64,000 nucleotides of DNA from Clostridiales bacterium (GTDB lineage Bacteria; Bacillota; Clostridia; Christensenellales; CAG-138), in NCBI GenBank assembly GCA_012517905.1, contig JAAYUE010000035.1:1-64000 (forward strand), written 5' to 3'. Under the pieces are notes generated by a model. That model made no database searches, had not been told where the DNA came from, and worked only from the letters and a program-made list of their open reading frames with translations. Positions 8,107-15,812 of this stretch are shown piece after piece; the first letter of the stretch is position 1, and each line of letters begins with the position of its first letter. A program made the translations under genes and the position numbers.

Positions 8107-8919
8107 TTATTCTTCGGCTTCCCCCAAGCGCCGCAGATACCGACCGGGTTCGGAGAGAAAATCCCGCAGAAAGTTGATGTTCTCCAGCTGCTCAAAGCTG
8201 CTTTCTTTCAGCGCGCCGCTGTCGAAGGCATACAGCATTGCGCACGGATACGCCAGCAGCACGGGGGAGTGCGTGGATACGATAAACTGGCTGTCGTGTT
8301 TTGCCGCGTCGGCGATCATGTTCATCAGCACATATTGATTGTAGTAGGAAAGCGCGCCTTCGGGTTCATCCATCAGATACAACCCCTGCGGCTTCAGGCG
8401 CGCGCCGAAGAAGTCGATATATCCTTCGCCGTGGGACTGCTCGGCCAGCTCGTCCGAATACATGCTGTTCATCTCGTGCAGGCCGGACGCATGCGGCATC
8501 GCGGCGAGGCTCCTGGCATAGCCGGAACGGTTCGCATATTCGCGGTCGATGCGCTCCATCTCGGCGCGCTCTTCGCGCATCATGTCCTCGCGTGCGTCGA
8601 TATAGCGCGTAAAATCCTCGGCAAGAAAAAAGAAACTGCGCTTCGGTTTGTGCGTAAATTCCGCGCGAAACGCGCGGGATGCGGTCGAAAAGCTGCCTTG
8701 CGCGCGCCGGCTTGCGCGCGCGTCCCCGATGCGAACGGCGCCCGTCAGCGCGGCGATGAGCTCCACCAGCGTGGTCTTGCCGCTGCCGTTGTCGCCCGCA
8801 ATCAGCGTCACGGGCGCGGAGAACTCCAGCCGATCGATGGCCGCGATCTGCGGCAGGTTCAGCGGATAGCTGTCTGAGGGCTCGTGTTCGGTTTGTTTAA
8901 TTGCGCGAAGAAAGATCAT
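8107..8919 (-). CDS. AAA family / ABC-type ATPase
   Basis: GDNGSGKTTLVE Walker A, LYLMDEPEGALS Walker B region, FIVSTHSPVLLA. Confidence 0.85.
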   Translation of the reverse strand: MIFLRAIKQTEHEPSDSYPLNLPQIAAIDRLEFSAPVTLIAGDNGSGKTTLVELIAALTGAVRIGDARASRRAQGSFSTASRAFRAEFTHKPKRSFFFLAEDFTRYIDAREDMMREERAEMERIDREYANRSGYARSLAAMPHASGLHEMNSMYSDELAEQSHGEGYIDFFGARLKPQGLYLMDEPEGALSYYNQYVLMNMIADAAKHDSQFIVSTHSPVLLAYPCAMLYAFDSGALKESSFEQLENINFLRDFLSEPGRYLRRLGEAEE

Positions 8920-9025
8920 AGTGGGATTATAGCACGCCGATGCGCGCGAAAAAAAGCCGCCCGGCGGCGATGATTTTATTGAGATGCAGCTTAAAAAAAC
9001 GTCCCCAACTGTTCACAATATTGAC

Positions 9026-9055
9026 TTTGGCATTTTGCGCCGTCGATGGTATAAT
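9026..9055 (+). promoter_or_regulatory. Putative promoter of DUF512 gene
   Basis: TTTGGC (9026-9031), 18-nt spacer, TATAAT (9050-9055); the ATG lies 7 nt after the -10. Confidence 0.55.
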
Positions 9056-9061
9056 GTCAAA

Positions 9062-10375
9062 ATGGCAAATATGCGTGGCACCCAACAGACCGTCAGCGAC
9101 GTGCTCCCCGGCTCACCGGCGGAGCGCGCCGGCATACGCATCGGGGACGCGCTGCTTTCCATCGACGGAGAGCCGGTGATCGATCTCGTGGATTACGAGC
9201 ACCTCTCGGCAAACGAAATCGTGACGCTCGATATCCGCAAAGAAAACGGCGACACGGAGCGAATCACGATCGAGAAAGACGACTTCGAGCCGCTGGGGCT
9301 GTCGTTTGCCACAAGCCTCATGGACAACATGCGCACCTGCAAAAACCATTGCGTCTTTTGCTTTATCGATCAGATGCCCAGGGGCGGGCGCTCCAGTCTG
9401 CACGTCAAGGACGACGACTGGCGCATGTCGTTCATCATGGGCAACTATGTGACCCTCACCAACCTCGACGAGCGGGAACTCGAGCGCATCATCCGCCGCA
9501 GGGTGAGCCCGCTGTTTGTCTCGCTGCATGCCAGCGATCCGGACGTGCGCCGCGCAATGATGAAAAACCCGCATGCGGGCGACATCGTCGCCCAGCTCAA
9601 GCGCCTTTCCGACGCAGGGCTGCAGTTTCATCTGCAGATCGTACTCTGCCCGGGGCTCAACGACGGGGACGTGCTGCGCCGCTCCATCGACGACATGCTC
9701 GCGCTCTATCCGCATGCGCAGTCGCTTGCGATCGTTCCCGTGGGGCTGACGCGGCACCGGGACGGGCTGACGCCGCTGCGTGGTTACACGCCGATGGAGG
9801 CGGACGCGCTGATCGACGAAATCGAAACGCGGCAAACGGACCTGCTCGAGCGGTACGGCACGCGGTTTGTGTTTCTGGCGGACGAGTGGTATACGCTCTC
9901 GGGCAGGACGCTGCCGGCGTACGACGATTACGAGGGGTTTCCGCAGATTGAAAACGGCGTCGGGCTGCTCCGCCTGTTCGAGGGCGAAATGCTCGAGGCG
10001 CTGGCGGACCGTAAGCCGCTGACCTGGAACAAGCGCTTTCTCATGGCGGGCGGCGTGTCCGCGGAACCGTTTTTTCGGGAAGCGTATCGAAAGTTGATTC
10101 CTTATGGAATCGAAATCAAGACGCGCGCGATTCGAAACCGATTCTTCGGAGAGAGCGTCACCGTCGGCGGGCTTGTCACGGGCGGCGATCTGATCGAACA
10201 GCTCAAGGGCGAGGACTTCGGCCGCGCGCTGCTGATTCCGCGCGCGATGCTCAAGGCGGACGAAGAGGTATTTCTCGACGGCATGACGAAAGCGGAGGCG
10301 GAGGCCGCGCTGCATACGCGGATCATTCCCGTCGCGACGGGAGAAGACCTGATTGAGATCGTATTTTCGGAGTAA
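9062..10375 (+). CDS. PDZ-domain / radical SAM-like DUF512 family protein
   Basis: SDVLPGSPAERAGIRIGDALLSIDGEPV (PDZ-like), CKNHCVFCFIDQMPRGGRSSLHVKDDDWRMSF (Cys-rich radical SAM-like), DUF512 C-terminus. Confidence 0.88.
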   Translation: MANMRGTQQTVSDVLPGSPAERAGIRIGDALLSIDGEPVIDLVDYEHLSANEIVTLDIRKENGDTERITIEKDDFEPLGLSFATSLMDNMRTCKNHCVFCFIDQMPRGGRSSLHVKDDDWRMSFIMGNYVTLTNLDERELERIIRRRVSPLFVSLHASDPDVRRAMMKNPHAGDIVAQLKRLSDAGLQFHLQIVLCPGLNDGDVLRRSIDDMLALYPHAQSLAIVPVGLTRHRDGLTPLRGYTPMEADALIDEIETRQTDLLERYGTRFVFLADEWYTLSGRTLPAYDDYEGFPQIENGVGLLRLFEGEMLEALADRKPLTWNKRFLMAGGVSAEPFFREAYRKLIPYGIEIKTRAIRNRFFGESVTVGGLVTGGDLIEQLKGEDFGRALLIPRAMLKADEEVFLDGMTKAEAEAALHTRIIPVATGEDLIEIVFSE

Positions 10376-12505: not shown

Positions 12506-12520
12506 AAGCTCGACAGGCAA

Positions 12521-12548
12521 AAAAAGCGCTTCCGTTGGGAAGCGCTTT
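12521..12548. terminator. Bidirectional intrinsic terminator between plsY and dapB
   Basis: AAAAGCGCTTCC-GTTG-GGAAGCGCTTTT, 12-bp perfect stem. Confidence 0.85.
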
Positions 12549-12579
12549 TGTGCGTTGCACATATTGATTCGAGTATGGG

Positions 12580-13806
12580 TCAGCCGATCGAAAACCGCTG
12601 GCGAATCGCGTCCGCCGCGCGGACGGCGTGCACGGTGTCCACGCAGAACTCAATGCGCGTTTCACTCGTGGTGATCAGCCAGATGTGGATGTTCTCCTTG
12701 CGCAGCGTGGAGAAGAGCTGGGAAGCGACGCCGTGCTGAAGTGCCATGCCCGTGCCTTCCAGCGTGAGCTTGGTCAGGTCTCCGCGGGTGCGGATTGTGT
12801 AGCCGTAGCCGTTTCTCGTCAGCTCGTTGATGGCGTTGAGCGCTTCGGAAAGCGACGATTCGTTCAGGGAAAAGCCGATGCTGAGGCTCTGCTCGTCCGG
12901 CTCGGAGCAGGCGATCATGTCCACGAATACCCCGTGCTCGGCGATGACGTCGAAGACCCGCGAGGCGAAGGCATCCTCTTTGGCAAACGAGCGGATGATG
13001 ACCGCCGCCTGCTCGTCCAGCGAGAAGAGCCGGGATGCCGCGTCGTGTTCGGTCACGACGTTTTTCATGTTGTAAAGGCCGCTCTCTTTGGCGACGAGGA
13101 ATTTCGCCGCGCGGAGCGCCCCCTGCGCGAACACGGCCTTGCTGAACGCCCGATGCGAAACCTCAATGATCTCGTCGTTTCCGATGAACTGCACCTGATG
13201 CTCGCCGACCACCGTTCCGCCGCGGACGGAATGGATGCCGATTTCGCGGTCGGAGCGGCGCTTGTTCTTCTCATGCCGCCCGAAAACGAATTCTTCGTCC
13301 TCCGGCGAGATGGAGGCGATCGCGTTTGCCAGCATCAGCGCGGTGCCGCTCGGGCTGTCCACTTTTTTTCGATGGTGCGTCTCGATGATCTCCACGTCGA
13401 AATTTCCGCCGAGCGTGGCGGCGGCGAGCTGCACGAGCTCGAGCTGGAGATTGACGCCGAGGGACATGTTGCCCGTTTGAAACACCGGGATGGCGTCCGA
13501 AGCGGAGCGGATGAGCTTGAGCTCCCGCTCGCCAAGTCCGGTCGTGCCGATGACGACGGGGATTTTTTGCTCCAGCGCATAGCGAAGGATGTCCGGCGTG
13601 GTTGCGGGAACGGAAAAGTCGATGATGACGTCCGCCTTTTCCTGCACCTCGTCGAGACTCTTGTAAACCGGGCAGCTGTAGGATGCGCTGCAGTCGAAGG
13701 GATCGACGCCGGCGACGGCGGAAAAAGCGCCGCTCTGCGCTTGGATAGCTGCATAAACGGCGCGTCCCATCTGACCGCAGATTCCGTTGATCAGAACAGA
13801 GATCAT
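12580..13806 (-). CDS. dapB: 4-hydroxy-tetrahydrodipicolinate reductase (DapB) with C-terminal tandem ACT (aspartokinase-like) extension
   Basis: DapB core MISVLINGICGQMGRAVY...VIGTTGLGE...EIIETHHRKKVDSPSGTALMLA...GALRAAKFLVAKESGLYNMKNVV, followed by about 157 aa ending LTLEGTGMALQHGVASQLFSTLRKENIHIWLITTSETRIEFCVDTVHAVRAADAIRQRF, which resembles aspartokinase ACT domains. Confidence 0.93.
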   Translation of the reverse strand: MISVLINGICGQMGRAVYAAIQAQSGAFSAVAGVDPFDCSASYSCPVYKSLDEVQEKADVIIDFSVPATTPDILRYALEQKIPVVIGTTGLGERELKLIRSASDAIPVFQTGNMSLGVNLQLELVQLAAATLGGNFDVEIIETHHRKKVDSPSGTALMLANAIASISPEDEEFVFGRHEKNKRRSDREIGIHSVRGGTVVGEHQVQFIGNDEIIEVSHRAFSKAVFAQGALRAAKFLVAKESGLYNMKNVVTEHDAASRLFSLDEQAAVIIRSFAKEDAFASRVFDVIAEHGVFVDMIACSEPDEQSLSIGFSLNESSLSEALNAINELTRNGYGYTIRTRGDLTKLTLEGTGMALQHGVASQLFSTLRKENIHIWLITTSETRIEFCVDTVHAVRAADAIRQRFSIG

Positions 13807-13830: not shown

Positions 13831-14706
13831 CTAGATGAGCTGAAAGCTCTTGAGCGTGTCCTCGATCAGGCGCATGCTGGCGGCCGCGGGCGGAACGAGA
13901 GGGAGCCTTACATCCGGCTCGCAGAGCTGCATGAGGCCCATCATGGCCTTGAGCGGGATGGGGTTGACCTCGCAGAACGCGGCCTTCCAGATCGGGATCA
14001 GCTGCAGCTGCAGCTCGCGCGCAAGCTGGAGGTCGCCCTTGAAAAACGCCTCGCAGAGCGCGTGCATTTCGCCCGGCACGATGTTGGCGATGGTGGAGAT
14101 GACGCCCTTGCCGCCGACGCTGAGCACGGGCAGCACATGGTCGTCGTTGCCGGAATAGATGTCGCACTGCGGACAGAGCGCGGCGATATTGACGATCTGC
14201 TCGATGTTGCCGCTGGCCTCTTTGGTGCCGACGATGTTCTCGTGCGTGCAGAGCTCCGCCATGGTCTGGGCCTGGATGTTCAACCCCGTGCGCGAGGGCA
14301 CGTTGTAGACGATGATGGGCGTTTCCACCGCGTCCGCCACCGTGAAGTAATGGCGGATGAGTCCCTGCTGCGTGGTCTTGTTGTAGTAAGGGGTGACGAT
14401 GAGCAGCCCGTCGACGCCGATCGCCTCGGCGGACTTGCTGTTGACGATGACCTCTTCGGTGTTGTTGCCGCCGGTGCTGGCGATGACCGGAACGCGGCCG
14501 TTGACGCGCTCCACGACGAACTGGATGATGCTCAGCCGTTCGTCGAGCGAAAGCGTCGCGCTTTCGCCGGTGGTCGCGACGCAGACGATCGCATCCGTGC
14601 GGTTGGCAATCTGCAGCTCGATGAGCCTTGTAAATGCCGTAAAGTCAATCGAGCCGTTTTGAAACGGCGTTACGATTGCTACGGCGCTTCCGCGAAAAAT
14701 AGACAT
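13831..14706 (-). CDS. dapA: 4-hydroxy-tetrahydrodipicolinate synthase
   Basis: MSIFRGSAVAIVTPFQNGSIDFTAFTRLIELQI...VATTGESATLSLDERL...VYNVPSRTGLNI. Confidence 0.96.
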   Translation of the reverse strand: MSIFRGSAVAIVTPFQNGSIDFTAFTRLIELQIANRTDAIVCVATTGESATLSLDERLSIIQFVVERVNGRVPVIASTGGNNTEEVIVNSKSAEAIGVDGLLIVTPYYNKTTQQGLIRHYFTVADAVETPIIVYNVPSRTGLNIQAQTMAELCTHENIVGTKEASGNIEQIVNIAALCPQCDIYSGNDDHVLPVLSVGGKGVISTIANIVPGEMHALCEAFFKGDLQLARELQLQLIPIWKAAFCEVNPIPLKAMMGLMQLCEPDVRLPLVPPAAASMRLIEDTLKSFQLI

Positions 14707-14712
14707 GTGTTT

Positions 14713-15717
14713 TTACGCCTCCCACTGACGAATGAGTTCCTGCGCAATCTGCACGGCGTTGGTCGCCGCGCCCTTGCGGATGTTGTCCGCAACGCACCAG
14801 AAGTTGATTCCGTTTTCCACGGAGAAGTCGCGGCGCAGCCGGCCGACGTAGACGGGATCGGTGTCCGCTGCGTAAAGCGGCATGGGGTAGATGCCCTTAG
14901 CCGTGTCGTCCTGAACGATGAGGCCCGGAGTCGCCTCCCAGAGCGCGCGGATGTCCGCCAGCTCAAACGACTTTTCCAGCTCGACGTTAATGCTCTCGCT
15001 GTGGCCGTGGAACACCGGCACGCGGACGGTGGTCGCCGTGACGCGAAGCTGCGGCAGGCCGAGGATTTTGCGCGTTTCGTCGACCATCTTCTGCTCTTCC
15101 TTGGTGTAGCCGTTTTCGAGGAAAACGTCGATCTGCGGCAGAACGTTTCCCGCGATGGGATACGGGAATTTCTTCGGCGCCTCGCCTTTGAGCCCGTTTT
15201 CCAGATCGCTGTAACCGCCCATGCCCGCGCCGGACACCGCCTGATAGGTCGAGTAGATCACGCGCTTGAGGCCATATTTTTTGAGCGGCTCGAGGGCGAC
15301 CATCGCCTGAATGGTCGAGCAGTTCGGGTTTGCGATGATGCCCTTGTTTTGATACTGCGGGATGTCGCCGGCGTTTACTTCGGGGACGACGAGCGGCACG
15401 TCCGGATCCATCCGCCAGCAGCTTGAATTGTCGATGACCACCGCGCCGGAAGCGGCGACGATGGGGGCGAACGTTTTCGAGGTGCCCGCACCGGCGGAAA
15501 AGAGCGCAATATCTACGCCAAGATCTTTGAATGCATCCTCGGTCAGTTCGCGGACGGTGTGTTTTTTGCCCATGAACTCGACGGTAGTGCCCGCGCTGCG
15601 TGCGGACGCAAAGAGGAAATACTCCGATGCCGGGAGCTTGCGCTCTTCCAGTACGCGGAGGAACATTCTGCCGACCATGCCTGTGGCGCCGACAACTGCG
15701 ATCTTGTACTGTCTCAT
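14713..15717 (-). CDS. asd: Aspartate-semialdehyde dehydrogenase
   Basis: KIAVVGATGMVGRMFLRVLEERKLPASEYFLFASARSAGTTVEF, NPNCSTIQAMVAL. Confidence 0.96.
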   Translation of the reverse strand: MRQYKIAVVGATGMVGRMFLRVLEERKLPASEYFLFASARSAGTTVEFMGKKHTVRELTEDAFKDLGVDIALFSAGAGTSKTFAPIVAASGAVVIDNSSCWRMDPDVPLVVPEVNAGDIPQYQNKGIIANPNCSTIQAMVALEPLKKYGLKRVIYSTYQAVSGAGMGGYSDLENGLKGEAPKKFPYPIAGNVLPQIDVFLENGYTKEEQKMVDETRKILGLPQLRVTATTVRVPVFHGHSESINVELEKSFELADIRALWEATPGLIVQDDTAKGIYPMPLYAADTDPVYVGRLRRDFSVENGINFWCVADNIRKGAATNAVQIAQELIRQWEA

Positions 15718-15783: not shown

Positions 15784-15812
15784 ATTTTAATAAATATTCA
15801 CTGGTTTGTCAA
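15784..15812 (-). promoter_or_regulatory. SigA-type promoter of asd-dapA-dapB
   Basis: Minus strand TTGACA (15807-15812), 17-nt spacer, TAAAAT (15784-15789). Confidence 0.75.

Follow-up and report, generated by a model that had tools for sequence, protein, structure and literature searches.

In a 64,000-nucleotide stretch of DNA from a Clostridiales bacterium (hereafter the window), we characterized a 408-aa protein in which a complete DapB (4-hydroxy-tetrahydrodipicolinate reductase) is followed by two ACT domains in tandem, a module of the kind found in LysC beta subunits. Its gene (dapB-ACT; 12580..13806, minus strand) starts with ATG and contains no internal stops. The catalytic core, with its NAD(P)-binding and C-terminal domains, occupies residues 1-251 (13054..13806, minus strand), and this region matches TIGR00036 at 204.9 bits (cut-off, 122) over positions 1-269 of the 270 in the model, in agreement with an earlier note, made from the letters of this DNA, that the core is complete to about residue 251. 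The DapB_N and DapB_C profiles each exceeded their cut-offs as well, and the core contains the HHxxKxDxPSGTA substrate motif and the GxxGxMG nucleotide loop, both of which are conserved across the alignment of homologues. Moreover, the best Foldseek matches of the whole-chain AlphaFold model (pLDDT 91.8) were all DapB structures. Canonical DapB is 240-270 aa long and is devoid of ACT domains. As represented by TIGR00036 and by the E. coli, S. aureus and M. tuberculosis structures, it shares the core, the substrate motif and the usual C-terminus with the window's protein, which differs in carrying 157 extra residues that constitute the ACT module.

These extra residues (252-408; 12583..13053, minus strand) comprise a linker and the tandem module, with the module proper spanning approximately residues 262-406. 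When the tail was scanned alone, ACT_9 matched in two stretches with 73.0 bits (cut-off, 27), and the ACT and ACT_7 profiles marginally exceeded their cut-offs. The tail also matched LysC-type aspartate kinases over their regulatory half (1.9e-24) and a PDB aspartokinase, 3l76 (1.5e-22). Its AlphaFold model (pLDDT 91.5) gave Foldseek TM scores of ~0.83-0.87 to the aspartokinase regulatory subunits 2zho, 2dt9, 3aaw, 4go7 and 2dtj, and the structural matches come from Thermus, Corynebacterium, Pseudomonas and Mycobacterium. The ACT_9 stretches, the model and the Foldseek matches describe two ACT repeats of beta-alpha-beta-beta-alpha-beta fold. ACT1 (12823..12969, minus strand) coincides exactly with a weak ACT_9 match and has a conserved D-M-I motif, of which D296 and I298 are invariant in 23 homologues, while ACT2 (12592..12765, minus strand; ACT_9, 53.9 bits) contains the conserved columns K346, E350, G-M354, G359 and TTSE (379-382). 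Since profiles, AlphaFold and Foldseek agree, the identity of the domains and their fold are clear, and the two aspartokinase-like halves that the earlier note had read by eye, and had proposed to check by domain scan and structural model, are borne out by both. LysC beta subunits of known structure (C. glutamicum 2dtj/3aaw, Thermus 2dt9/2zho, M. tuberculosis 4go5/4go7 and P. aeruginosa 5yei) have the same tandem fold (TM ~0.83-0.87) and order of elements, and share the D-M-I, K, G-M, G-V-A and TSE positions with the DapB module. Unlike them, the module is attached to, or encoded beside, DapB rather than an aspartokinase catalytic domain, and the DapB modules form tree groups of their own with specific residues at positions 350, 383 and 384.

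We mapped the residues around the putative effector pocket to the numbering of C. glutamicum LysC. D294, K346, M354, G359, A361, T379, T380, S381 and E382 are common to most modules, be they from LysC, fused or stand-alone; the same is largely true of Q298, which the window's genus replaces with Cys. Work on feedback resistance of the C. glutamicum enzyme lists mutations at S381, E382, T361, A279 and Q298, among other positions, with E382A apparently lacking a strong effect as far as its entry is legible (PMC10464499). The ACT1 loop that reads D-K-P-G in C. glutamicum is degenerate in the DapB-linked modules, and equally so in Clostridial LysC. Two positions distinguish the subfamilies. At position 350, 98% of fused modules have Glu, LysC has Val or Ile and most stand-alone modules have Tyr, Ser or Phe, and position 384 is Lys or Arg in most LysC and fused modules vs. 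Asp or Glu in 95% of stand-alone ones. These subfamily marks argue for specialised, still constrained, putative pockets, and the Glu at position 350 of nearly all fused modules, where LysC has Val or Ile, implies that the ligand may differ.

An asd-dapA-dapB operon occupies this part of the minus strand, and dapB-ACT is its final gene. Directly upstream lies dapA (13831..14706; 291 aa; DHDPS, 290.9 bits), preceded by the operon's first gene, asd (14713..15717), which encodes a 334-aa aspartate-semialdehyde dehydrogenase with Semialdhyde_dh and Semialdhyde_dhC domains. A promoter-like site upstream of asd (TTGACA-17-TAAAAT; 15784..15812, minus strand) agrees with the consensus at 11 of 12 positions, and is so named on the consensus match alone. 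Past dapB-ACT, direct reading of the sequence revealed an inverted repeat, AAAAGCGCTTCC...GGAAGCGCTTTT, followed by T's (approximately 12519..12550, minus strand), which is a probable intrinsic terminator; a pattern scan did not report a terminator after dapB-ACT. An Rfam scan of the window found no riboswitch. Elsewhere in the window's genome (G000) there is a second, plain DapB of 262 aa (TIGR00036, 188.5 bits) without ACT, encoded upstream of thrS (L042:4777-5562; contig C32, ~8576-9361). Similar second copies occur in the congeners G001-G004 and G006 and in G023 and G025, and the plain protein could be an unregulated isozyme beside a regulated DapB-ACT.

The same 408-aa protein was found in six other genomes of the genus at 83-90% identity. 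Within the genus, dN of the ACT tail is 0.04-0.12 while dS is ~0.8 or more, with the core in the same range, and the low dN relative to dS indicates strong purifying selection on the tail. Its presence in six congeners, together with this selection, shows that the fusion is not an accident of assembly. Full-length DapB-ACT occurs in 58 of 297 genomes sampled from the window's order by manual tally of the search listing, in 17 families and including single-contig genomes; the remaining genomes of the order have mostly plain DapB. Outside the order, fusions were found at 11 loci of the class (292 class genomes surveyed). One full DapB-ACT fusion is encoded on L046 (PGXR01000100.1), a contig that binning assigned to a Spirochaetae MAG, and because its core groups with Clostridia, either transfer or mis-binning would account for it. 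Another genome (G052) encodes a 398-aa DapB (L041:1501-2694) whose C-terminal extension matches no ACT family, and is possibly a decaying ACT module.

A second state of the same two parts exists among relatives, in which dapB ends normally and is immediately followed by a tandem-ACT ORF of 150-165 aa. The search of named relatives returned mostly plain DapB, with counts per named taxon to be read as "at least", and among the matches listed the separate-gene form was present at L051, L052, L055, L059, L072, L077, L078, L093 and L095. At L093 and L072, the ATG of the ACT ORF overlaps the stop codon of dapB. When 292 genomes of the class were surveyed with a profile of the tail and checked locus by locus, 44 of the 46 stand-alone modules examined adjoined dapB, directly downstream of it; besides stand-alone modules, the survey found fusions in 14 genomes. 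In total, at least 58 of the 292 genomes, from 22 families, possess a DapB-linked module, a lower bound that leaves weaker matches outside the count. The exceptions among the 46 are L232, where dapB is absent from the 3.6 kb read, and L238, where the module follows lysC. The latter ORF (L238:2529-3017) lies directly 3′ of lysC and is placed by the tree with the neighbouring LysC, which suggests a local duplication of the LysC regulatory half. In four genomes outside the class (L210-L213; G865, G745, G771 and G795), dapB and the ACT ORF are in frame with one TGA between them, such that a single stop-codon change would join the two. An annotated public example is Monoglobus pectinilyticus, where asd-dapA-dapB is followed after a 42 bp gap by WP_102365209.1, an "ACT domain-containing protein"; the NCBI annotation of the stand-alone gene gives this generic name only. 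That the two parts are fused in some genomes and neighbours in others is a classic sign of joint function. Thus, the DapB-ACT architecture that the earlier note had suggested looking for is widespread in Clostridia, either as a fusion or as a dapB-adjacent gene.

In a phylogeny of 99 ACT modules, the labels fused, stand-alone and LysC required four changes vs. ~42 when shuffled; many forks of this tree are weak and it has no fixed root, so it does not tell whether fusion or fission came first. The fused and the adjacent forms likewise cluster in a phylogeny of 188 DapB cores, requiring 8 and 11 changes, respectively, vs. ~48 when shuffled, and all of the Lachnospiraceae sampled have plain DapB. 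At L062, and similarly in some other Clostridia, lysC itself resides in the dapB operon (asd-dapA-dapB-dapD-type gene-lysC), and the regulatory half of the L062 LysC matches the DapB-tail profile with a score on a par with those of many DapB tails. Given this arrangement and score, we infer that the ACT module of DapB probably came from a neighbouring lysC.

The aspartokinases encoded in the same genomes bear on what the module does. The window genome's only aspartokinase belongs to the YclM/PRK09034 class and has an intact ACT region; no LysC-type aspartokinase was found in this genome. Across 80 genomes of the order, nearly all have one YclM-class aspartokinase of ~440 aa, whether or not their DapB has ACT. 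Among genomes with a stand-alone module, some have both types of aspartokinase, and 13 have a single one with an open frame of YclM-class length (450-477 aa); a LysC-type enzyme (~410 aa) was not found in these 13. The earlier note had envisaged that control was moved to DapB from an aspartokinase shorn of its ACT domains, and this finds no support, since the sole aspartokinase is of another class, keeps its own ACT domains and belongs to the class that is usual in the order with or without ACT on DapB. Within the order, we rejected a simple swap, with LysC lost and its ACT moved to DapB, for the genomes with plain DapB also have only YclM-type aspartokinase; it is further contradicted by genomes of the class such as G353, G392 and G463, which contain a full LysC-length protein together with a DapB-linked module. 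The note's other suggestion was that the module pairs in trans with an aspartokinase; it would then be a beta subunit for which DapB is no more than a carrier, or would tether DapB to the aspartokinase. Its LysC beta-like sequence and fold would suit such a role, as would the one stand-alone copy after lysC, but nearly all other stand-alone copies adjoin dapB, the window genome's YclM-class enzyme already has an in-chain ACT region, and the 13 genomes lacking a LysC-type kinase offer it no LysC whose beta subunit it could be. Judged by gene content, namely the missing LysC-type partner and the linkage to dapB, the module does not belong with LysC beta subunits, and we regard an in-trans function as very unlikely. 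We give least credence of all to the idea that the tail is a structural or degenerate appendage that has lost ligand binding and serves only to stabilise the oligomer. In its favor are the degenerate effector loop of ACT1, the loss of the ACT label many times on the DapB tree and the no longer ACT-like extension at L041, so decay does occur. Against it, the dN/dS of the tail in the window's genus (~0.04-0.14) equals that of the core, residues of the pocket region are conserved across classes, and the separate-gene form persists beside dapB in many families.

Several observations link the module to lysine. In 15 of 39 DapB-ACT genomes, the operon is headed by a lysine riboswitch, which lies 1.0-2.2 kb upstream of dapB-ACT and on its strand, and one precedes asd at L045, L051, L055, L072, L077, L078 and L093. 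About 35 of the 39 have a lysA match better than 1e-65. The window genome (94% complete) showed no lysine riboswitch and only a weak lysA match (4e-14), whereas both are present in the congeners G002, G003 and G007; the window genome may have lost the last step of lysine synthesis, or the absence may be an assembly gap. Two explanations of DapB-ACT were discarded on these data: loss of LysA, since lysA is usually present, and replacement of the lysine riboswitch by ACT, since both co-occur on the same operons. It is conceivable, though on balance doubtful, that the module regulates DapB in response to an effector other than lysine, which may be an activator: meso-diaminopimelate, threonine, methionine or some further amino acid. 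The subfamily-specific changes by the pocket at positions 350 and 384 would fit this, as would the binding of Thr, besides Lys, by LysC-type ACT pairs (PDB titles 3aaw, 3ab2 and 4go7), the pathway's supply of cell-wall precursors and the want of a convincing lysA in a few DapB-ACT genomes; the lysine riboswitches on the same operons point instead to lysine.

Taken together, we consider it reasonably likely that the ACT module is an ancient regulatory module of DapB. According to this proposal, the module descends from a LysC-type aspartokinase, of which it was the regulatory half, its linkage to dapB arose early in Clostridia, and it would be retained in some lineages as a separate, often closely coupled gene (dapB-act) and in others, including the window's, as a fusion. 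ACT modules of neighbouring chains would pair as they do in aspartokinase, and an end-product amino acid would bind at the ACT1/ACT2 interface and make the DapB tetramer more or less active. L-lysine is the likeliest ligand because of the ancestry of the module and the riboswitches, and inhibition the likeliest effect because it is the usual sign. Feedback would then act at the fourth step from aspartate (AK, Asd, DapA, DapB), and not at the third as the earlier note had counted, alongside transcriptional control by lysine riboswitches on many operons. Of that note's inference, allosteric control at DapB thus stands as the most likely meaning of the fusion, whereas its transfer from an ACT-less aspartokinase is unsupported. 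Counting against a regulatory module are the plain DapB of many relatives, including all sampled Lachnospiraceae, the degenerate ACT1 loop, the Cys at position 298 in the genus and the want of a riboswitch or convincing lysA in the window genome.

Attached or separate ACT parts that confer end-product control are known from 3-phosphoglycerate dehydrogenase, prephenate dehydratase and acetohydroxyacid synthase (AHAS) with IlvN/H, and the fused and separate forms described here resemble AHAS-type systems. None of these acts on DapB, and the module of DapB would come from the family of the same pathway's first enzyme. No control by lysine is known for canonical DapB, and textbooks treat its step as unregulated. 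A literature search, whose reach ended at subscription papers, found no description of DapB-ACT; as far as found, therefore, ACT regulation is known and DapB as its target is new. A regulatory module would have moved between enzymes of one pathway, with the separate and fused states both extant.

A DapB with a fused or adjacent aspartokinase regulatory half suggests an undescribed feedback point in many Clostridia. Whether Clostridial DapB is in general a two-part allosteric enzyme, with an ACT subunit that gives feedback by lysine (or DAP) at the HTPA branch point, is in our judgement an even call. In spore formers, DapB competes with dipicolinate synthesis for substrate, and control of DapB could therefore set the split between lysine and cell wall on one side and dipicolinate on the other. 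DapB is also a target of drug design. If the proposal is true, a function would be at hand for small genes annotated only as "ACT domain-containing protein", and lysine-producing strains could be given a natural switch. Models of the control of lysine and cell-wall precursors would change for Clostridia, including gut and rumen anaerobes, by a regulatory layer that is absent from textbook models of the pathway.
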